Positions 4,873 to 11,408 of a stretch of DNA of 41,063 bases are shown here, in pieces (position 1 is the stretch's first letter; every line of letters starts with the position of its first letter). The position numbers were made by a program, and so were the translations under genes. Source of the stretch: a virus. Where the stretch lies: the IMG/VR virus record IMGVR_UViG_3300021197_001388, positions 1 through 41,063 of that record. One strand, 5' to 3'. Under the pieces are notes generated by a model that worked only from the letters and a program-made list of their open reading frames with translations, did no database searches and had not been told where the DNA came from.

Positions 4873-5331
4873 ATGAATAGAGATGCGGTATACAAACAAT
4901 TGAAAATCGACGAAGGTGTTAAGTATGAGATCTATAAAGACCATCTCGGCTACCCCACATTTGGAGTCGGTCACCTCATCACAGAAGACGACCCTGAATA
5001 CAGAGAGCCAATTGGAGCCCCCATTACCGAAGACAGAGTACGAAGCTGTTTCGATAAAGATCTTGACACAGCAGTCAGCGAGTGTGAAGTACTATACGGA
5101 GAAAGGGATTTTAGTAGATTACCAGATGAAGTCCAGCAGATCTTGGTTAATATGATGTTCAACATGGGGCGTCCTCGTCTTTCTGGTTTCAAGAAGTTTA
5201 ATGCTGCAATCGAGAATTTCGACTGGACAACCGCAGCTATAGAAGGAAGAGATAGCCGCTGGCACAGACAAGTAGGTGACAGAGCTGAGCGATTAATGGT
5301 AAGATTGGAAGTCCTAGCCTCAGGAGCATAA
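4873..5331 (+). CDS. e: T4-type lysozyme (endolysin, GH24)
   Basis: A 152-residue protein aligned by eye over nearly its full length with T4 lysozyme (164 residues). It cleaves the N-acetylmuramic acid-N-acetylglucosamine bonds of peptidoglycan at the end of infection. The catalytic Glu14 (IDEG), Asp23 (YKDHLGYP) and Thr29 in the TFGVGHL segment correspond to T4 E11, D20 and T26. The C-terminal NMMFNMGRPRLSGF and SRWHRQVGDRAERL motifs are also typical. There is no signal peptide, so release would need a holin. It opens the lysis region and is followed two bases later by a lipase gene. A baseplate gp5-type role is unlikely because it stands alone. Confidence 0.93.
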   Translation: MNRDAVYKQLKIDEGVKYEIYKDHLGYPTFGVGHLITEDDPEYREPIGAPITEDRVRSCFDKDLDTAVSECEVLYGERDFSRLPDEVQQILVNMMFNMGRPRLSGFKKFNAAIENFDWTTAAIEGRDSRWHRQVGDRAERLMVRLEVLASGA

Positions 5332-5332
5332 C

Positions 5333-6052
5333 ATGGCAATATCAACAGAATTTTATCACCATGCCCTGATCTCAAGACTCGTCTACAAAGACGAAGATAT
5401 GAGTGTAAGAAATGAATTCAGAGAAATGGGCTACAAAGGAATAAAATTCTTTGATAAAAAAGGCGCACAAGCGTATGTACTTAATAACGATGATCGAATC
5501 ACCGTTGCCTTTAGAGGTACAGAACCTTCAGAAATGAGTGATGTTCTAGCAGATTTAGAATTCATACGCAGGAGGGGATTCCATCAAGGTTTCTTAGAAG
5601 AGTACGAAAAACTCGAAAACAAAATTACTGCTGAAGTTGCTAAACAGCAACAAATGAAAAGACGACCTGTATACATAACAGGTCACAGTCTTGGTGCTGC
5701 AATTGCTTGCATATTTGCCTATTACTACCCATCAGCAGTTGCATTGTATACATACGGGTGTCCACGTAATATGTCGTGGTCGATATCTAAAAATCTCAGA
5801 GTGCCCCATTACCGTTGCGTGAATAACAATGACATTGTTCCTAAAGTACCACCTGTAATCTTTGGATTTAAACATACAGGTCGGTTGAAATATATCAACT
5901 ATTATGGTAACATAAGAAAGATGACACCATGGCAGAGATTTAAAGATTCGTGGCGTGGTCGAATGCGTGCATTGAAAAAGGGGCAGCCCTTTGATGGAGT
6001 GTATGATCATAGTATGGATGAATATTGTAGATTTTTAGAGGATAATGAATAA
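5333..6052 (+). CDS. class 3 lipase-like alpha/beta hydrolase
   Basis: A 239-residue protein of the lipase class 3 fold. The nucleophile elbow GHSLG is at residues 117-121 (Ser119), preceded by a VAFRGTEP strand-turn at 58-65 typical of the family. Asp167 (NNNDIVP) and His226 (YDHSMDEY) complete a plausible Ser-Asp-His triad. It should hydrolyse acyl esters, perhaps membrane phospholipids. It has no secretion signal. Its start lies two bases after the lysozyme stop, so it may help lysis by attacking the membrane; that role is inferred from position. The next gene overlaps its stop (TAATG). Confidence 0.88.
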   Translation: MAISTEFYHHALISRLVYKDEDMSVRNEFREMGYKGIKFFDKKGAQAYVLNNDDRITVAFRGTEPSEMSDVLADLEFIRRRGFHQGFLEEYEKLENKITAEVAKQQQMKRRPVYITGHSLGAAIACIFAYYYPSAVALYTYGCPRNMSWSISKNLRVPHYRCVNNNDIVPKVPPVIFGFKHTGRLKYINYYGNIRKMTPWQRFKDSWRGRMRALKKGQPFDGVYDHSMDEYCRFLEDNE

Positions 6053-6249
6053 TGCGTGAAGAACTTCTTAAAGCAAGTGAACAACATTTCAAAGCTCTGG
6101 TAGAAAAGCATCGTATGAATGTTGAAGTGTATTTGACTAATCCAGCTGGTATTGGCGAGCACTCCGACATCATGGAAGCTATTGAAACCGAACTGGCTCA
6201 AATGGCTGAATATGATGATAAACTAGAAATGTTGAAGAAGCATTTCTAA
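6052..6249 (+). CDS. small conserved phage protein (EHSDIMEAI motif)
   Basis: A 65-residue protein with a NPAGIGEHSDIMEAIETEL core. I recognise it as a short protein widespread in marine T4-like phages and of unknown function. It is predicted to be fully helical and acidic. Both ends are coupled to neighbours by TAATG overlaps. Its place between lipase and a membrane protein puts it in the late lysis/structural region. Confidence 0.8.
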   Translation: MREELLKASEQHFKALVEKHRMNVEVYLTNPAGIGEHSDIMEAIETELAQMAEYDDKLEMLKKHF

Positions 6250-6512
6250 TGCCCTGGCTTGTCGTCCTAACACTTAAATCGATACTGGGTTCAATTATTG
6301 GATCCAGTTTTTACGCTTGGTTTAAAAATACGAAAGTAGGTGTTTGGTTTCAAGTTAAAGTCGACAACGCTATGAGTTATCTTGCTGAGAAGTATGATAT
6401 CAAAATAGCAGAAAGAGAAGATAAATGGTTACAGCAGTATCCTAGGTTGGCACAAAGGATTGTAAACCTTGAAAACGAAATAAAAGATCTCAAAAGAGAT
6501 CTAAAAACGTAA
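6249..6512 (+). CDS. small membrane-anchored coiled-coil protein
   Basis: An 87-residue protein with an N-terminal hydrophobic segment (about residues 2-24, LVVLTLKSILGSIIGSSFYAW) and a charged helical C terminus ending in a short coiled coil. I recall the same architecture from marine T4-like phages without a known function. The topology would suit a lysis accessory protein, but no holin family can be recognised. A late promoter box lies 9 bases after its stop. Confidence 0.75.
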   Translation: MPWLVVLTLKSILGSIIGSSFYAWFKNTKVGVWFQVKVDNAMSYLAEKYDIKIAEREDKWLQQYPRLAQRIVNLENEIKDLKRDLKT

Positions 6513-6520
6513 AAAAGACG

Positions 6521-6528
6521 TATAAATA
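6521..6528 (+). promoter_or_regulatory. T4-type late promoter TATAAATA
   Basis: A perfect TATAAATA in the 46-base gap between two genes. The transcript would start near 6534, leaving a leader of about 25 bases to the ATG at 6559. In T4 this box is recognised by gp55 sigma with the gp45 clamp; that factor lies outside the window. Confidence 0.8.
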
Positions 6529-6558
6529 TTTTTCGTCAACATATAGGATGAATCCAAA

Positions 6559-6756
6559 ATGAAACCTTTTGCTTTACTTGCATGTTTAATGTTTGTAGGG
6601 TGTGCAGCCGATACCACAAAAATAGATTATAGCCTCGAATTTCGCCCCCCTTCTGATTTTGATTGGATGCCCAATCCTTTATTATGGGAAAGAAATGTTA
6701 GAAATTGTAGAAGCCTACCTCAATGCAATCCAGCTGACTTGTTTTATAGAACATAG
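6559..6756 (+). CDS. small predicted lipoprotein
   Basis: A 65-residue protein with a lipoprotein signal peptide: hydrophobic residues 4-14 followed by a FVGC lipobox with Cys15. The mature part of about 50 residues is rich in Trp, Pro and Asn and has two further cysteines (CRSLPQC), which could form a disulfide in the periplasm. It follows directly behind a perfect late promoter. It could be an outer-membrane lysis or exclusion factor, but no family is recognised. Confidence 0.7.
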   Translation: MKPFALLACLMFVGCAADTTKIDYSLEFRPPSDFDWMPNPLLWERNVRNCRSLPQCNPADLFYRT

Positions 6757-6788
6757 AGCTTGTCTTCATATCTCCATTTGCAGTATAG

Positions 6789-6796
6789 TATAAATA
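6789..6796 (+). promoter_or_regulatory. T4-type late promoter of the redox cassette
   Basis: A second perfect TATAAATA in the 84-base gap before the cytochrome c-copper monooxygenase gene. The predicted start is near 6802, with a leader of about 39 bases that carries a GTGGAGAA ribosome site before the ATG at 6841. It implies that the whole 6841-10527 cassette is transcribed late. Confidence 0.82.
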
Positions 6797-6840
6797 CTAA
6801 ACCAATAGCAGTATTTGTATAACGACAGTGGAGAAAAGCC

Positions 6841-8157
6841 ATGAAGAAGTTTTTATTCCTATTACTATTGCCAATCAGCGCAATAGCTCAAACATACACA
6901 GATGATGTTGCAGAAATTATAAACAACAACTGTGTAACTTGTCACCGTCCTGGTGGTGTAGGCCCAATGAGTTTTGAATCTTACGATCAGGTAAGACCAT
7001 GGGCACCACTAATCCAATTGAAAGTCGCTTCAAGAGAAATGCCTCCTTATGCTTATGATCAGCATATCGGTATTCAAGACCTGGAAGGCGACTGGCGTTT
7101 AAGCGATGAGCAGATTGATACAATCGTTGCATGGGTAAATCAAGGTTCTCCTTACGGCGACCAAGATATAGTACCTCAGTTGCCAGAGATTCCAGATCCT
7201 GATGACTGGAGATTCTCTGCTATGTTCGGTCAACCTGATATGATTGTTGCTTCACAAGCATACGACATTCCTGCAAACGGAAATGACTTGTGGAGTAAGG
7301 AATTTGTAAACCCACAGCTTACAGAAAACAAGTGCATCAAAGCAGTACAAGTTAAGCCACGAGGCGATGCAGCAGCAGTTGTACATCACGCCAATTCAGA
7401 TGTGTATATGTATGACGAAGAAGGCGAGCTTGTTCCTTATGGTCAGTTGACTGAGTATGCAATGGGCAAATGGGGTGAAGTAATGCCCGAAGGTGTTTGT
7501 CGTACAATGCCAGCAGGTTCACTAGTACGTTGGGACATTCATATGTTCCCAGGTGGTGTTGGTGCAACTGCTGAAGGTGGCATGATCAAAGACAACGTAG
7601 TAGAGATTGGTCTTTGGTTCCACGAAGACGGATTTGAAGAGCAAGAAGATATCTACAATCAAGACCTTCGCTTGTATCCTCTAAGAGAGGGTTACGAAAA
7701 TGGTCACTTAATTGTACCCCCACATGGTTATGCTATGACTCAAGGGTTCCATAGTTTTGACCATCCTGTACGAATCGATAGCTTTCAGCCTCACGGACAC
7801 CTTCGTATGAATGCTGCCAGTTTAGAGATTTTTGATCCTAAGACAGGTCGTACAACGTCAGTTAGCCAAATTTCTAAATGGAGCGCAACCTGGCATCACA
7901 GCCATATCTATGCTGAAGATGTTGCTCCATTACTAGCACCTGGCGAGGTTTTAGTACTGAAGCAGTGGTATGATAATACTGCTGATAATCCCAACAACCC
8001 TGATCCTGATATGTGGGTAGTAGGTGGTAGCCGTACTGGTGATGAAATGTCACACGCATGGATTGCTGTTACCCATTTAGACGATGAAGGTTATGAAACA
8101 TTATTGGCCGAACGTAGAGAAAGTGAGGCAAGGAGTTTAGCAGGAAGTGATGATTAG
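6841..8157 (+). CDS. secreted cytochrome c-PHM copper monooxygenase fusion
   Basis: A 438-residue protein with a Sec signal peptide (residues 1-16, cut after AIA). A cytochrome c-like domain at about 20-110 holds one heme-binding CVTCH (Cys31, Cys34, His35). A copper type II, ascorbate-dependent monooxygenase-like domain (PHM fold) follows at about 120-420. All copper ligands of that fold can be placed: His182-His183 and His234 for the first copper, His318-x-His320 and Met403 for the second. Such enzymes hydroxylate C-H bonds with O2; the substrate here is unknown and the attached heme may deliver electrons. The protein would act in the periplasm. It lies behind a perfect late promoter, overlaps the next gene, and begins a six-gene cassette not expected in a phage. 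Confidence 0.88.
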   Translation: MKKFLFLLLLPISAIAQTYTDDVAEIINNNCVTCHRPGGVGPMSFESYDQVRPWAPLIQLKVASREMPPYAYDQHIGIQDLEGDWRLSDEQIDTIVAWVNQGSPYGDQDIVPQLPEIPDPDDWRFSAMFGQPDMIVASQAYDIPANGNDLWSKEFVNPQLTENKCIKAVQVKPRGDAAAVVHHANSDVYMYDEEGELVPYGQLTEYAMGKWGEVMPEGVCRTMPAGSLVRWDIHMFPGGVGATAEGGMIKDNVVEIGLWFHEDGFEEQEDIYNQDLRLYPLREGYENGHLIVPPHGYAMTQGFHSFDHPVRIDSFQPHGHLRMNAASLEIFDPKTGRTTSVSQISKWSATWHHSHIYAEDVAPLLAPGEVLVLKQWYDNTADNPNNPDPDMWVVGGSRTGDEMSHAWIAVTHLDDEGYETLLAERRESEARSLAGSDD

Positions 8158-8461
8158 AATTATTTTATTGATGGGTCTTTTGACTCATTTTGCAACAGCA
8201 CAAGAAACGGATTTTAGTAGTATTGAAACAAATTGGAGAGTATGTGCTACTTGCCATGGTAATAAAGGTGAGGGGAAGCCAGGCTTCCCTTCATTAAATA
8301 TATTAACGAGTGAGTACGTCATTGAAGCATTGACCGACTATAGAAACAATGTCTACCGAGGTGATATGAGTACTACTATGTTTGGTATGTCTGCTGCACT
8401 TACTGACGAACAAATTGAATTGTTTGGAAAATATGTTGAAGAGGTTTTGAGTAATGATTAG
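8150..8461 (+). CDS. small periplasmic cytochrome c
   Basis: About 103 residues, with a signal peptide (to about residue 18, FATAQ) and a class I cytochrome c domain: heme motif CATCH near residues 32-36, then GNKGEGKPGFPSL and a C-terminal helix (TDEQIELFGKYVEEV). Met residues at about 73, 77 and 80 (GDMSTTMFGM) can supply the axial ligand. It is the likely soluble electron carrier between the two copper monooxygenases and host redox partners. Heme attachment needs the host Ccm system. A GTG at 8147 is an alternative start one codon upstream. It overlaps the preceding gene by 8 bases and the following one by 8 bases. Confidence 0.88.
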   Translation: MIRIILLMGLLTHFATAQETDFSSIETNWRVCATCHGNKGEGKPGFPSLNILTSEYVIEALTDYRNNVYRGDMSTTMFGMSAALTDEQIELFGKYVEEVLSND

Positions 8462-9155
8462 AATATTATGTTTAATGATGTTGTCTTTTGCAGCATCGGC
8501 CCAAAATTTTGCCCTTCTTGATACAGAAGGCAATTATCATTTGATGAGATATTATGGTAACTATGATACAATTGCTATAATGACAGCATCAGCACAAAGT
8601 AGCGAAGAAGCAAAGCTGAGATTCTTTGCTACAGTCAATAGAGGAAGCACTGAGAAAACTAAATTTTTCTTACTAAATCCTACTGGCGAACCTAGGAACA
8701 CAGAACAAAACGCAGTACTTGAAGATGTTCCTATGTTGATGGATGATGCTAAAATAGTTTCAAAGGCTTTGGGTCTTACACAATTGAATGAAATTGTGTA
8801 CATGGATCCAATCACGGGTGAGATTGGCTTTAGGTCTATCATAGAAGAAGGTGAACCAATAGAAACTGATTGGGGTCAGCCTTCTTATACTAATGACATA
8901 GCACCTATACTTATTGACAATTGCGTTACATGTCATAGGTACGGTGGTATTGGACCATGGGCAATGACCGATCATGTGATTGTTCAAGCATTTGGTCCTG
9001 CAATAAGTGAAGCACTACTTACTAAACGTATGCCACCTGGACAATTAGATCCAACGATAGGTGAATTTACGAATGATATGAATTTAACTAACGAAGAACA
9101 ACAAAAACTTATTCAGTGGATCGCTAACGGTTCACCAGGAGACTACGATGAATAA
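8454..9155 (+). CDS. redoxin-like / cytochrome c two-domain protein
   Basis: A 233-residue exported protein (signal to about residue 16, SFAASA). Residues 18-135 resemble a thioredoxin/redoxin fold, but I see no CxxC pair there, so it may be structural or degenerate. Residues 140-230 repeat the cytochrome c-like domain of the first cassette gene, with heme motif CVTCH (Cys157, Cys160, His161), the same RxGGxGPW continuation and a shared MPP motif. From memory, some marine bacterial proteins join redoxin, this cytochrome c and a PHM domain in one chain; here the third domain is the next gene, overlapping by 8 bases. That suggests a split gene or a two-subunit form of the same enzyme. Confidence 0.85.
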   Translation: MIRILCLMMLSFAASAQNFALLDTEGNYHLMRYYGNYDTIAIMTASAQSSEEAKLRFFATVNRGSTEKTKFFLLNPTGEPRNTEQNAVLEDVPMLMDDAKIVSKALGLTQLNEIVYMDPITGEIGFRSIIEEGEPIETDWGQPSYTNDIAPILIDNCVTCHRYGGIGPWAMTDHVIVQAFGPAISEALLTKRMPPGQLDPTIGEFTNDMNLTNEEQQKLIQWIANGSPGDYDE

Positions 9156-10095
9156 ATGGCTAGCATTGTTAATATTGCCATCACTGGCTTTTGCACAAGA
9201 CCCATTGCGTCAATATGACGTACCTGAGACAAAGTGGACTGGAGCTTTGGAATTAAACAGAGAACCAGATTTGATCATTGACCTACCAGCACAAGAAATT
9301 CCAGCATCAGGCATGATTCCATATCGTTATGTTACAGTAGACGTTCCCTTAGATGAGGATCGTTGGGTTCAAGCAAGTGAGTGGCTGCCCGGTGACCGTA
9401 CTGTACTGCATCACACATTGAATCAATTAGTAGGACCTGAGTCAAAGCCCAGCTTTGGTGGCTTCTTAGGTAACCAGTCTGGTAGAGATGCGGACCAAGT
9501 TGATTTGGCTGCTTATGTACCCGGTGGCACAGCAACAGTATTCCCCGAGAACACAGGTGGCTTACTGAAAGCAGGTTCAAGTCTGCAACTACAACTTCAC
9601 TATACTACAAACGGTACTGCCGCAATTGACCGTAGTAAACTTGGTGTTTGGTTCTACCCAGAAGATCAAGTACCCGAAGAAAGAATGACGGGTATGTGTG
9701 CATGTATCTTCCCTGACTCATGGACAAACATTCCTCCAGGTGATCCTAACTTTGTACAGACAAAGAGTATTAAGACTCGCAACGATATTGAACTGCATAC
9801 TTTCTTACCACACATGCACTGGCGAGGTAAGAGCATGAAAGCAGTGGCTTACTATCCTGATGGTACACAAGAAAATCTAATCAATGTTGCTAACTACGAC
9901 TACGATTGGCAGCTTGCTTATACCTGGACAGAGCCTAAGTTTATTCCAGCGGGAACCACTATCACTGTAGATGGTGCGTTTGACAATTCAGCAATGAATC
10001 CTGCTAACCCGGATCCCGAGCGTTCAGTACCCTGGGGACAAATGTCAGAGGACGAAATGTTCTTTGGCGCAATGACATGGAAAAACCTGAAATAA
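9148..10095 (+). CDS. PHM-type copper monooxygenase subunit
   Basis: A 315-residue protein with a Sec signal (residues 1-16, SLAFA). It shows the copper type II monooxygenase ligands in good form: His88-His89 (VLHHTL), His151 (LHYTTNG), His222-x-His224 (LPHMHWRGKSM) and Met304 (QMSEDEMFF). Members of this fold use two separated copper atoms and O2 to hydroxylate substrates. There is no heme motif, so electrons probably come from the neighbouring cytochromes. The C-terminal QMSEDEM motif is closer to canonical PHM than that of the first cassette gene. The stop codon overlaps the strong ribosome site of pqqA. The substrate is unknown. Confidence 0.9.
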   Translation: MNKWLALLILPSLAFAQDPLRQYDVPETKWTGALELNREPDLIIDLPAQEIPASGMIPYRYVTVDVPLDEDRWVQASEWLPGDRTVLHHTLNQLVGPESKPSFGGFLGNQSGRDADQVDLAAYVPGGTATVFPENTGGLLKAGSSLQLQLHYTTNGTAAIDRSKLGVWFYPEDQVPEERMTGMCACIFPDSWTNIPPGDPNFVQTKSIKTRNDIELHTFLPHMHWRGKSMKAVAYYPDGTQENLINVANYDYDWQLAYTWTEPKFIPAGTTITVDGAFDNSAMNPANPDPERSVPWGQMSEDEMFFGAMTWKNLK

Positions 10096-10099
10096 GGAG
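10094..10099 (+). promoter_or_regulatory. strong Shine-Dalgarno AAGGAG of pqqA
   Basis: AAGGAG begins inside the TAA stop of the copper monooxygenase gene, 8 bases before the pqqA ATG at 10108. It is a strong ribosome site and fixes the start of the tiny gene. Confidence 0.75.
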
Positions 10100-10107
10100 A
10101 AAAAACT

Positions 10108-10179
10108 ATGTGGACCAAACCAACCTACCAAAAGATCCGTCTTGGATTTGAAGTTACTATGTACTTCAAGAACAGCTAA
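10108..10179 (+). CDS. pqqA: PqqA, coenzyme PQQ precursor peptide
   Basis: A 23-residue peptide, the usual PqqA length. It starts MWTKP, has RLGFEVTMYF in the middle and keeps Glu15 and Tyr19 in the E-V-T-x-Y motif, the two residues that PqqE cross-links to build pyrroloquinoline quinone. Pseudomonas and Klebsiella PqqA peptides begin MW(T/K)KP and carry the same G-(F/L)-E-V-T motif, so identification does not depend on a weak match. It has a strong AAGGAG ribosome site, and copC starts three bases after its stop. No pqqB, C, D or E is present in the window, so the host would have to process the peptide. The phage may raise PQQ supply for quinoprotein dehydrogenases late in infection; this is inference. 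Confidence 0.92.
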   Translation: MWTKPTYQKIRLGFEVTMYFKNS

Positions 10180-10182
10180 ACT

Positions 10183-10527
10183 ATGGAAAAAATAATAGCC
10201 TTTGTAGGACTGTGTTTATTAGCAGCACCTTTATTTGTACAGGCACATCCTAAGCTATTGGAGACTACCCCTGCCGCTGATTCTACTGTTGGGTCAGCAG
10301 CAGGGGTTTCCTTATCTTTCAATCAAGATGTGAGATTGCTCAAACTTTCTGTTACATCAGAAAACGGTATCGAGCTAGACAGCGATTTTAAAATAACACC
10401 AGAAAGTAAGAAAGATTATAATGTAGCTGTTGACAATATGGTTAAAGGAAAATTCACTGTAACTGCTTCTGTTGTAGGAGCAGATGGTCATACAGTTAGC
10501 AGGTCTTTTAGCTTTACCGTTGAATAG
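10183..10527 (+). CDS. copC: CopC-like periplasmic copper-binding protein
   Basis: A 114-residue protein with a signal peptide ending at VQA-21, leaving His22 as the mature N terminus. CopC proteins bind Cu(II) through the amino-terminal His plus an Asp and a His near the C terminus; here these are Asp101 and His103 in GADGHTVSRSFSF. The HPKLLETTPAADS opening and the beta-sandwich pattern fit the family. It probably delivers or buffers copper for the two copper monooxygenases upstream. It is translated directly after pqqA with a gap of three bases. Confidence 0.9.
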   Translation: MEKIIAFVGLCLLAAPLFVQAHPKLLETTPAADSTVGSAAGVSLSFNQDVRLLKLSVTSENGIELDSDFKITPESKKDYNVAVDNMVKGKFTVTASVVGADGHTVSRSFSFTVE

Positions 10528-10529
10528 CA

Positions 10530-10685
10530 ATGTCTCCTGCATTCTATGTGATGTATCTAGTACTCATTGTAGTGGACACTGCTATACACGTTATGATCCA
10601 AATGTACTTTGAAGGCCACCGAGCATTTGATGATAAATACAACGAATTCGAGGAAGAAGAGTTACTGAGATGGGATGGAAGTTAA
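10530..10685 (+). CDS. small single-span membrane protein
   Basis: A 51-residue protein: hydrophobic residues 3-26 (AFYVMYLVLIVVDTAIHVMI) form one membrane span, followed by an acidic tail (EFEEEELLRW). It starts two bases after the copC stop and overlaps the i-spanin-like gene by 16 bases. It may belong either to the redox cassette (a membrane anchor) or to the lysis genes. No family recognised. Confidence 0.65.
   Translation: MSPAFYVMYLVLIVVDTAIHVMIQMYFEGHRAFDDKYNEFEEEELLRWDGS
10632..10639 (+). promoter_or_regulatory. possible late promoter variant GATAAATA
   Basis: GATAAATA inside the preceding small gene, 31 bases before the i-spanin-like ATG at 10670. It is the same one-base variant as at 1260. 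It could separate spanin expression from the redox cassette, but may be chance within coding sequence. Confidence 0.3.
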
Positions 10686-11068
10686 GTGCATTGATGTTTG
10701 TTTTAATGAGCGCCATGGGTGGTGGCGGATACCTTTATTTCAAATCCACGCAGAACACAATTCGTCAGTTATCAGAAAACAATGCAGTCTTAGAAAGCGC
10801 TGCTCAAACTCAAAAGAATACTATAAGCACGCTTCAAGCAGACTACGAAAGATACAATGCTCTTAATCTTGATCTACAAAAAAGACTTCAAGAGTCTGAA
10901 GCACAAAAGAATGAACTGGAAGATAAACTTGGTAGGCACGATTTAACAGTATTGTCGTTACGCAAACCAGGATTGGTTGAGCGCACAGTAAATAGAGGCA
11001 CACAGGAAGTATTTAATGATTTTTCAGAACTTACGACTCCTACTGATCCTGACGCTCCTGATCAGTAG
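10670..11068 (+). CDS. i-spanin-like inner-membrane coiled-coil protein
   Basis: A 132-residue protein with one N-terminal membrane span (about residues 5-24) and a long periplasmic coiled coil (about 28-90) rich in Gln, Asn, Glu and Leu. This is the architecture of Rz-type i-spanins, which fuse inner and outer membranes in the last step of lysis. Its 3' end overlaps by 53 bases, in another frame, a gene for a lipoprotein with a proline-rich segment, as in Rz/Rz1 pairs. The assignment rests on topology and gene overlap rather than sequence identity. Confidence 0.72.
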   Translation: MGWKLSALMFVLMSAMGGGGYLYFKSTQNTIRQLSENNAVLESAAQTQKNTISTLQADYERYNALNLDLQKRLQESEAQKNELEDKLGRHDLTVLSLRKPGLVERTVNRGTQEVFNDFSELTTPTDPDAPDQ

Positions 11069-11408
11069 CACAGCATGCTCGACATTCGGCGCCTTCGGTA
11101 ACCGGGTTCAACAATTAGAAATATTTGCTGAGCCAGTTGAACGAGCACCGATACCTACGCAACCACCTCCCGCTCCTGTACGGCTGAAGGATGTCCAATG
11201 GTATGTTGTGTCAGAAGAGAACTTTGAAGGGTTCAAAGAAAGACTGGTAGATCGTCAAGGTCTCCTTGTGTGGTATGCTATAACTGTTGCAGACTATGAA
11301 AGCCTCTCGGTCAACCTTCAAGAGATTAGAAGATATATTGTACAGCAGCAAGAATTGATTAAATATTATGAAGATGCAATTGCAAACGATACCAAAGGTG
11401 ATGAATAA
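11016..11408 (+). CDS. o-spanin-like outer-membrane lipoprotein
   Basis: A 130-residue protein with a lipoprotein signal: hydrophobic residues 6-17 followed by the lipobox STAC with Cys21. A proline-rich stretch (PIPTQPPPAP) lies at about residues 46-55, a feature of o-spanins. The C-terminal part is helical. The gene begins inside the i-spanin-like gene in a different frame, as expected for a spanin pair. It is longer than lambda Rz1, so the o-spanin role is inferred from arrangement. Confidence 0.7.
   Translation: MIFQNLRLLLILTLLISSTACSTFGAFGNRVQQLEIFAEPVERAPIPTQPPPAPVRLKDVQWYVVSEENFEGFKERLVDRQGLLVWYAITVADYESLSVNLQEIRRYIVQQQELIKYYEDAIANDTKGDE

Follow-up and report, generated by a model that had tools for sequence, protein, structure and literature searches.

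Organization of the cassette

The window, by which we mean the whole stretch of DNA analysed, is an IMG/VR virus record of 41,063 bases and not a bacterial genome, so the gene pair considered here belongs to a phage and not to a bacterium. Five genes follow one another in a single tight run (Table 1), in the order gene A, small cytochrome c, redoxin-cytochrome c, PHM and CopC, and the genes for spanins, primase and ribonucleotide reductase lie downstream. An earlier note, made from the sequence alone, had taken the redoxin-cytochrome c and PHM genes for a three-domain bacterial enzyme divided over two genes, the one at 8454 being redoxin-like plus cytochrome c and the one at 9148 being PHM. 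AlphaFold models and fold comparison agree with these domains, and the coordinates, the 8-base overlap and the combined length (233 + 315 = 548 residues) were also right. A fused bacterial form does exist, but the pair in the window is a phage's own.

Table 1. Features of the cassette in the window, and of the gene inserted between the two halves in related phages
Feature	Position	Strand	Support
Gene A: cytochrome c and PHM-type domain, with signal peptide	6841..8157	+	ORF; cytochrome c Pfam E 2e-5
Small stand-alone c-type cytochrome, 104 aa	8147..8461	+	Pfam Cytochrom_C E 7e-6
Split first half: signal peptide, thioredoxin-like, cytochrome c; 233 aa	8454..9155	+	
AGGAG, likely ribosome-binding site of the PHM gene	9137..9141	+	Read from the sequence
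Overlap of both halves, 8 bp, ATGAATAA (PHM start and redoxin-cytochrome stop)	9148..9155	+	
Split second half: signal peptide (1-16), PHM/DBH-type copper monooxygenase; 315 aa	9148..10095	+	
CopC-family protein, exported	10183..10527	+	Pfam CopC E 1.1e-15
SOUL-type inserted gene	L006:9338-9991; L084:6899-7552; L007 (start)		

Gene A carries the haem motif CVTCHR and the PHM copper-ligand pattern HH, IH, HGH and DEM, and when it was aligned with gene B, the other PHM-type gene of such loci, the copper ligands were invariant in 15 of 15 rows. The small cytochrome starts with GTG at 8147 or, alternatively, with ATG at 8150. Given the ATG start it shares 8 bp (ATGATTAG) with each of its two neighbours, gene A and the first half of the split, and the run holds three 8-bp overlaps, ATGATTAG twice and ATGAATAA once. 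Homologues of this small cytochrome sit between genes A and B in other viral loci. The AGGAG lies within the last codons of the first half, ahead of the PHM start. CopC adjoins the PHM gene in the window-clade loci L003, L004, L005, L007 and L008, and a role in delivering copper to the monooxygenases is possible.

The PHM protein

The AlphaFold model of the second half, built from a 33-row alignment of phage and bacterial sequences, has a mean pLDDT of 81.9. When residues 37-315 were compared by VIA-align, human DBH was matched with Z 18.7 (270 aligned, rmsd 3.7) and the rat PHM entries with Z 15.0-18.0; the top 26 matches were all DBH or PHM and the next, an unrelated fold, stood at Z 10.0. 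Foldseek gave E 2e-12 for the same model, and the criterion of a double jelly-roll PHM fold is met. The ligands are H88, H89 and H151 for CuH and H222, H224 and M304 for CuM, so a CuH site of three histidines and a CuM site of two histidines and a methionine are both present as required of such an enzyme. Over the 33 rows H88, H89, H151 and M304 are invariant and H222 and H224 are conserved in at least 90%. The five histidines (HH, the third His and HxH) fall in stretches aligning with rat PHM, and M304 was matched through the DEM motif to what we take to be the corresponding motif of the rat enzyme.

The protein was not recognised by sequence. Pfam at 1e-3 assigned no family to either half, and Pfam, NCBIfam and PHROGs gave neither half a name at threshold; the Cu2_monoox_C hit of the second half was sub-threshold (E 0.19, 11.6 bits against a cut-off of 23). 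A single PHM sequence found no match in the PDB with phmmer, and a PHM profile found PHM entries only, at E 0.75-1.1. Since the HMM scores to known PHMs are sub-threshold, the homology rests on the fold and the ligands. In BFVD no convincing PHM-like viral protein was seen among the 50 matches listed (highest TMq 0.36), a result that does not rule out such a protein.

Each protein of the pair begins with a short run of charged and hydrophobic residues that ends in A-x-A before a Q (MIRILCLMMLSFAASA in one and MNKWLALLILPSLAFA in the other, each followed by Q). These signal peptides were judged by eye, with no prediction program behind them, and on that footing the second gene does have one of its own, as had been proposed.

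The redoxin-cytochrome c protein

The first half (model pLDDT 82.2) consists of a thioredoxin-like domain at about residues 17-138 and a cytochrome c domain at about 144-233 with CVTCH. In the fold comparison residues 13-132 matched ResA and other thioredoxin-like proteins with Z up to 14.0, and the first-half profile matched thioredoxin-like proteins by sequence as well (E 1.8e-11). There is no cysteine between the signal peptide and CVTCH; the thioredoxin-like fold is thus met, though the catalytic cysteine criterion for an active thioredoxin or peroxiredoxin is not. This Cys-less redoxin may be a docking or folding module and would not be a thiol enzyme.

The haem motif residues C157, C160 and H161 are invariant in 26 rows, and in the model the helices of the cytochrome c domain lie between 145 and 224. 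A CxxCH in an exported helical domain, as expected of a c-type cytochrome, is therefore present, and Pfam gives Cytochrom_C only below threshold (E 0.15).

Bacterial relatives

One genome per species (84,980 species) was scanned with the phage alignment, giving at least 569 relatives in 595 stretches, and the analysis went on with the best 80. At 72 of these 80 loci there are 74 intact ORFs in which redoxin, cytochrome c and PHM follow one another in that order. The record titles are mostly of Gammaproteobacteria (Pseudohongiella, OM182, Pseudomonadales), and the domain order that the earlier note gave for marine bacterial proteins does exist in marine Gammaproteobacteria. Two of the other eight loci lack the redoxin (L087, L165) and three are at contig ends (L156, L158, L161); the apparent bacterial splits L116, L132 and L160 were rejected, being frameshifts (L116, L160) or a run of N (L132).

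The bacterial redoxin is without cysteine in 68 of the 74 ORFs and has CxxC in none of them (0/74). The first half of the window pair aligns end to end with the bacterial fused proteins at 31-41% identity, its redoxin lacking about 40 residues at the redoxin end, and the PHM half, past its signal peptide, begins at the conserved DPL of the linker; the split point thus maps to the cytochrome/PHM linker, just before DPL. The Pseudohongiella/OM182-type fused proteins share with the window the three domains, their order and a redoxin that is mostly Cys-less, and the nearer ones are mostly 51-62% identical to it in PHM. They differ in being a single chain of about 570-660 residues, in a redoxin about 40 residues longer and in a PHM without a signal peptide of its own. 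One three-domain gene of this marine type, on L129 (CAMCRC010000044.1), groups with Gammaproteobacteria such as Pseudohongiella and is titled Klebsiella pneumoniae, a title that is probably wrong.

In the family of G003, P0002 matched 38 of 59 genomes at 1e-40, among the matches listed. Those of at least 50% identity, again among the matches listed, are long fused-type ORFs, with the exceptions of the phage-like contig G004, the contig end L309 and the N-run L310, and paralogues of about 37-40% identity are stand-alone PHMs. At L305-L308 and L312 such stand-alone PHMs lie beside a separate redoxin-cytochrome gene with a linker end such as WINAGSPRN, one donor gene being accompanied by 2-4 PHM genes; the same boundary has thus been cut in bacteria too. 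In these split operons the boundary is that of the window and the PHMs likewise have their own signal peptide followed by (GV)DPL. Unlike the window pair, they belong to a different paralogue clade (about 37% to the window PHM), keep cysteine in the redoxin and have several PHM genes for each donor gene. They form a clade of their own in both trees, with the phage PHM1 nested inside. By eye, old-yellow-enzyme-type oxidoreductase-like genes follow the PHM genes in L305-L308, and there is a large transporter in L305-L307.

Gene A also has bacterial relatives, with 16-17 gene-A-like matches in three of seven genomes (G001, G003, G006). A three-domain-type gene is present in 12 of 42 gene A loci, many of which are short and some overlapping, and the pairing therefore probably predates the cassette of the phages. 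The bacterial gene A is accompanied at L164 (4296-5249) by a gene for an exported protein of some 317 aa without a Pfam family, with homologues in many gene A loci; it is possibly a partner protein. The Pseudomonadales MAG contig L087 (JALRBG010000283.1) carries a phage-type gene A and a redoxin-less gene B, 73-75% identical, and is perhaps a phage contig binned with its host.

Distribution in phages

The P0002 search of viral contigs gave at least 104 relatives, and 80 were kept. In 69 of these loci cytochrome c and PHM form one fused ORF and the locus shows no match to the redoxin; six (L003-L008) hold a PHM ORF without cytochrome and five are truncated. Gene A is directly upstream of gene B in all 61 fused loci that extend more than 600 nt upstream, the remaining eight of the 69 having too little to be counted, and a viral scan with gene A itself gave 150 relatives. 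When both halves and gene A were compared by tblastn with 50,697 phage records, none of them gave a match.

The split was found on eight viral contigs including the window (L003-L008 and L084 being the others), the pair being only partly covered on L007 and L084. The junction in L003, L004, L005 and L008 is the same as in the window. Three of the eight (L006, L007, L084) have a gene between the halves, of 217 aa in L006 and L084, and the one in L006 is a SOUL haem-binding gene (Pfam E 2e-44). The AGGAG before the PHM gene is kept in L003, L004, L005 and L008 and, past the inserted gene, in L006, L007 and L084. In L006 and L084 the SOUL-type gene overlaps the gene upstream of it by the same 8 bp.

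The DNA of the first-half signal peptide in the window is similar to the corresponding DNA of the small cytochrome c (score 24.0; starts 8454 and 8150), and that of L006 differs. The PHM signal peptide might have been copied from the SOUL-type gene: between that gene and the window PHM the signal-peptide DNA scored 20.5-22.5, a comparison chosen after the sequences had been seen; for 3922 non-independent signal-peptide pairs of genes A and B the 99% point was 16.0 and the maximum 20.5, and the SOUL and PHM signal sequences of L006 itself scored 12.5 only. The signal sequences of the cassette may have been copied or swapped.

A T4-like major head protein (phrog_138) is encoded upstream of the cassette in L003 and L084. 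A near-identical cassette lies beside this major head protein in L003 (5984-11380) and between lysis-type genes in the window (4873-11408), and an HNH-like gene, recognised by eye, adjoins it in L003. The cassette seems to move. It meets the criterion of a phage auxiliary metabolic gene, that is of host origin in a real phage genome, on the basis of the virus record, the ribonucleotide reductase, primase and spanins, the head protein nearby in relatives and a PHM nested among bacterial rows.

A scan with the redoxin-cytochrome alignment profile gave 21 loci, among which L182 is the only contig of the window clade with a fused three-domain gene. Its redoxin-cytochrome c-PHM protein has 534 aa, with a short redoxin as in the window, and is 50% identical to the first half of the window pair and 61% to the second. 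The gene comes directly after a small cytochrome c gene, and the contig also carries a phage tail-tube gene and a helicase. L186-L188 hold a more distant fused form. On L183 and L184 a redoxin-cytochrome c gene lies between two PHM genes, PHM1 before it and PHM2 after it, and there is one more thioredoxin-like gene; one PHM of theirs is 93% and 87% identical, respectively, to a PHM of the bacterial split operons. The 93% identity of L183 PHM1 to an L307 protein points to recent transfer and to hosts of that kind. L183 and L184 were dropped as a clean independent phage split because their first PHM comes from the bacterial split operon; a second phage split, resting on their second PHM and the donor gene alone, is possible. 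In L182 (1795-2487) and L183 (6635-7216) a separate thioredoxin-like protein with GCP(I) cysteines is encoded after the PHM gene.

Proposed function

It is probable that the window derives from a T4-like marine phage with a periplasmic copper-monooxygenase cassette of Pseudohongiella/OM182-type origin, in which the redoxin-cytochrome c-PHM protein was cut in the phage and its donor now acts in trans. The cassette would have been taken from Gammaproteobacteria of that type. From the sequences, its third and fourth genes answer to a single three-domain protein cut at the cytochrome/PHM linker, most probably within the phages, the PHM half having gained a start, a ribosome-binding site and a signal peptide. 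Both halves are inferred to be exported, the host to load haem onto the cytochrome and the copper to come from CopC. The redoxin-cytochrome protein would then be the electron donor in trans that reduces CuH of the PHM subunit, standing in for the ascorbate of the animal enzyme, and CuM with O2 would hydroxylate a periplasmic substrate that is unidentified. One such donor could serve several PHM subunits, and that it works in trans is plausible in view of the bacterial operons with one donor and several PHM genes. A periplasmic copper oxygenase supplied with electrons by a cytochrome protein of its own is what the export, the haem motif, the copper ligands and CopC point to; the electron transfer and the substrate are inferred, with no biochemistry behind them.

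The neighbourhood did not name the substrate. Among the clusters linked to the phage cassette none was conspicuous as belonging to a substrate pathway, and those near the bacterial three-domain genes (DUF3237, MMPL transporter, MFS, esterase and others) pointed to no substrate. Nor was a PAL lyase domain or gene, which in a peptide-amidating enzyme (PAM) acts after PHM, noticed in the cassette. The proteins might instead be an electron or copper sink, reducing O2 without oxidizing a substrate or handling copper or haem, and no hydroxylase. Such a role would suit the cytochrome, the CopC and, in sister phages, the SOUL haem-binding gene around it, as well as the lack of a prominent substrate pathway gene in the linked phage clusters. 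However, both PHM proteins retain the set of copper ligands typical of PHM, and a sink would not need a pair of paralogous PHM domains kept together, so a sink appears unlikely.

Origin and maintenance of the split

In the widest PHM tree the window split clade groups with the fused no-redoxin phage genes (97/91), L182 joins them at 100/98, and PHM2 of L183 and L184 comes next, adjoining bacterial fused proteins, at 92/82, a modest support for the phage clade as a whole. In the redoxin-cytochrome tree, where the no-redoxin genes are not included, L182 is sister to the window clade (100/99). The fused L182 being next of kin in both domain trees, the split most likely arose in phages. The trees are unrooted, and the direction of change was taken from parsimony and the L182 linker. 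On the simplest reading of these sequences the phage ancestor had the fused three-domain form; most phages would then have lost the redoxin, and in the window clade the protein would have been cut just ahead of DPL.

The reverse history, with the phage ancestor split first and L182 and the no-redoxin genes being re-fusions, draws on L183 and L184, the outermost phage branch for PHM2, being split and on the fused three-domain contig having been found once in the clade. It has to account, however, for the bacterial-type linker kept by L182 (DAGSPSDATSVDPLAEL against EAGAPKDGTTDPLAQL), which re-fusion would hardly restore, and needs more events than two separate splits. A tree holding the two phage split groups together, that is the window split with PHM2 of L183 and L184, was moreover rejected (p-AU 0.0024, the group having been named after the tree was seen), and this order of events is rather improbable.

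The earlier note had held that bacterial homologues already divided at the same boundary would refute its reading. Such homologues do exist, in the paralogous clade, but the window pair falls outside that clade in both trees. The phage could in principle have taken over an operon in which redoxin-cytochrome c and a stand-alone PHM were separate genes beforehand, as these operons occur in the host family (L305-L308, L312) and the phages L183 and L184 hold a PHM close to the bacterial split one. That the window split was inherited in this way is nevertheless quite improbable: its PHM has about 62% identity with a fused protein of bacteria against about 37% with a bacterial split one, and in both domain trees the pair stands beside the fused L182 and apart from the split clade of the bacteria. 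Among the matches listed for the G003 family, in which 38 of the 59 genomes had matches, there was no bacterial split pair that is sister to that of the window.

Both halves are under purifying selection, with dN/dS of 0.07-0.13 for the first (pairs with dS > 0.8) and 0.03-0.05 for the second; gene A has 0.05-0.07. The junction is kept between contigs at synonymous distances above 0.8 and is thus not a chance ORF pair. A sequencing or assembly frameshift, or a decaying gene, can also leave two ORFs overlapping by 8 bp in different frames, but it could scarcely repeat the junction on L003, L004, L005 and L008 or separate the halves by a 217-aa gene, as in L006 and L084 (and likewise seen in L007). 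Nor would it give the PHM half its own start, AGGAG and signal peptide, with about 16 residues at the start that have no counterpart in the fused linker, or dN/dS of 0.05 and about 0.1 at dS near 1; such an artefact is hardly credible. The evidence indicates that the split is derived and maintained, rather than decay or a read error. The earlier claim of a working split and not a decayed frameshift thus stands as regards maintenance (eight contigs, dN/dS, L182), the word working being inferred from selection and not from biochemistry; it is further limited by the Cys-less redoxin and by the 69 of 80 phage relatives in which cytochrome c and PHM are fused without redoxin.

A virion protein with a double jelly-roll, and no enzyme, is a scarcely tenable reading of the PHM-like protein, for although PHM is described as sharing this fold with some capsid proteins (PMC8812541), and some capsid proteins appear low in the fold lists, Z is 15-18.7 to PHM/DBH against < 8 to capsid proteins, the protein has copper ligands and a signal peptide, and L003 and L084 have their own T4-like major head gene close to the cassette.

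Returning to the phage cassette as a cytochrome-fed oxygenase, a broader interpretation can be offered only tentatively. Many T4-like marine phages may carry a two-component, cytochrome-fed PHM-type oxygenase of an undescribed kind, obtained from Gammaproteobacteria that can have a dozen or more paralogues. The donor would have been cut repeatedly at one linker (in bacteria, and in phages once or perhaps twice, if not more often), the reason being that it acts in trans and is able to serve several PHMs, and in infection the system would redirect periplasmic electrons and O2 to an unidentified oxidation.

Significance and comparison with known systems

The proteins represent an unannotated bacterial PHM branch with built-in haem donors, expanded in marine Gammaproteobacteria and carried by many uncultured phages, which keep two PHM paralogues side by side. 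With the fused, redoxin-less and split versions, nature offers constructs for testing how a cytochrome could feed the PHM copper site. If expressed during infection, they would be a new phage route to change host oxygen and electron use. A literature search of titles and abstracts, most subscription papers being beyond reach, returned nothing about a PHM encoded by a phage or about the three-domain proteins of bacteria.

It is chiefly from animals that PHM-type oxygenases are known. The window PHM is like the hydroxylase domain of rat PAM and human dopamine beta-hydroxylase in its fold, its CuH site (H, H, H) and its CuM site (H, H, M), at about 18% identity. The reductant of the animal enzymes is ascorbate, and they are not known to have a cytochrome c partner; in the window the presumed donor is, unlike this, a cytochrome c protein of the same operon. 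The PHM fold and the presumed chemistry are known already, and what is new is an architecture fed by a presumed cytochrome donor, its carriage by phages and a split that took place more than once.

The pmoC-phages are large phages with a copper-monooxygenase gene of their host (Chen et al. 2020, PMC7674155), which is reported there to be co-expressed with structural genes. Their pmoC is one subunit of methane monooxygenase, whereas the cassette in the window encodes whole soluble PHM-type enzymes together with their donors and CopC.
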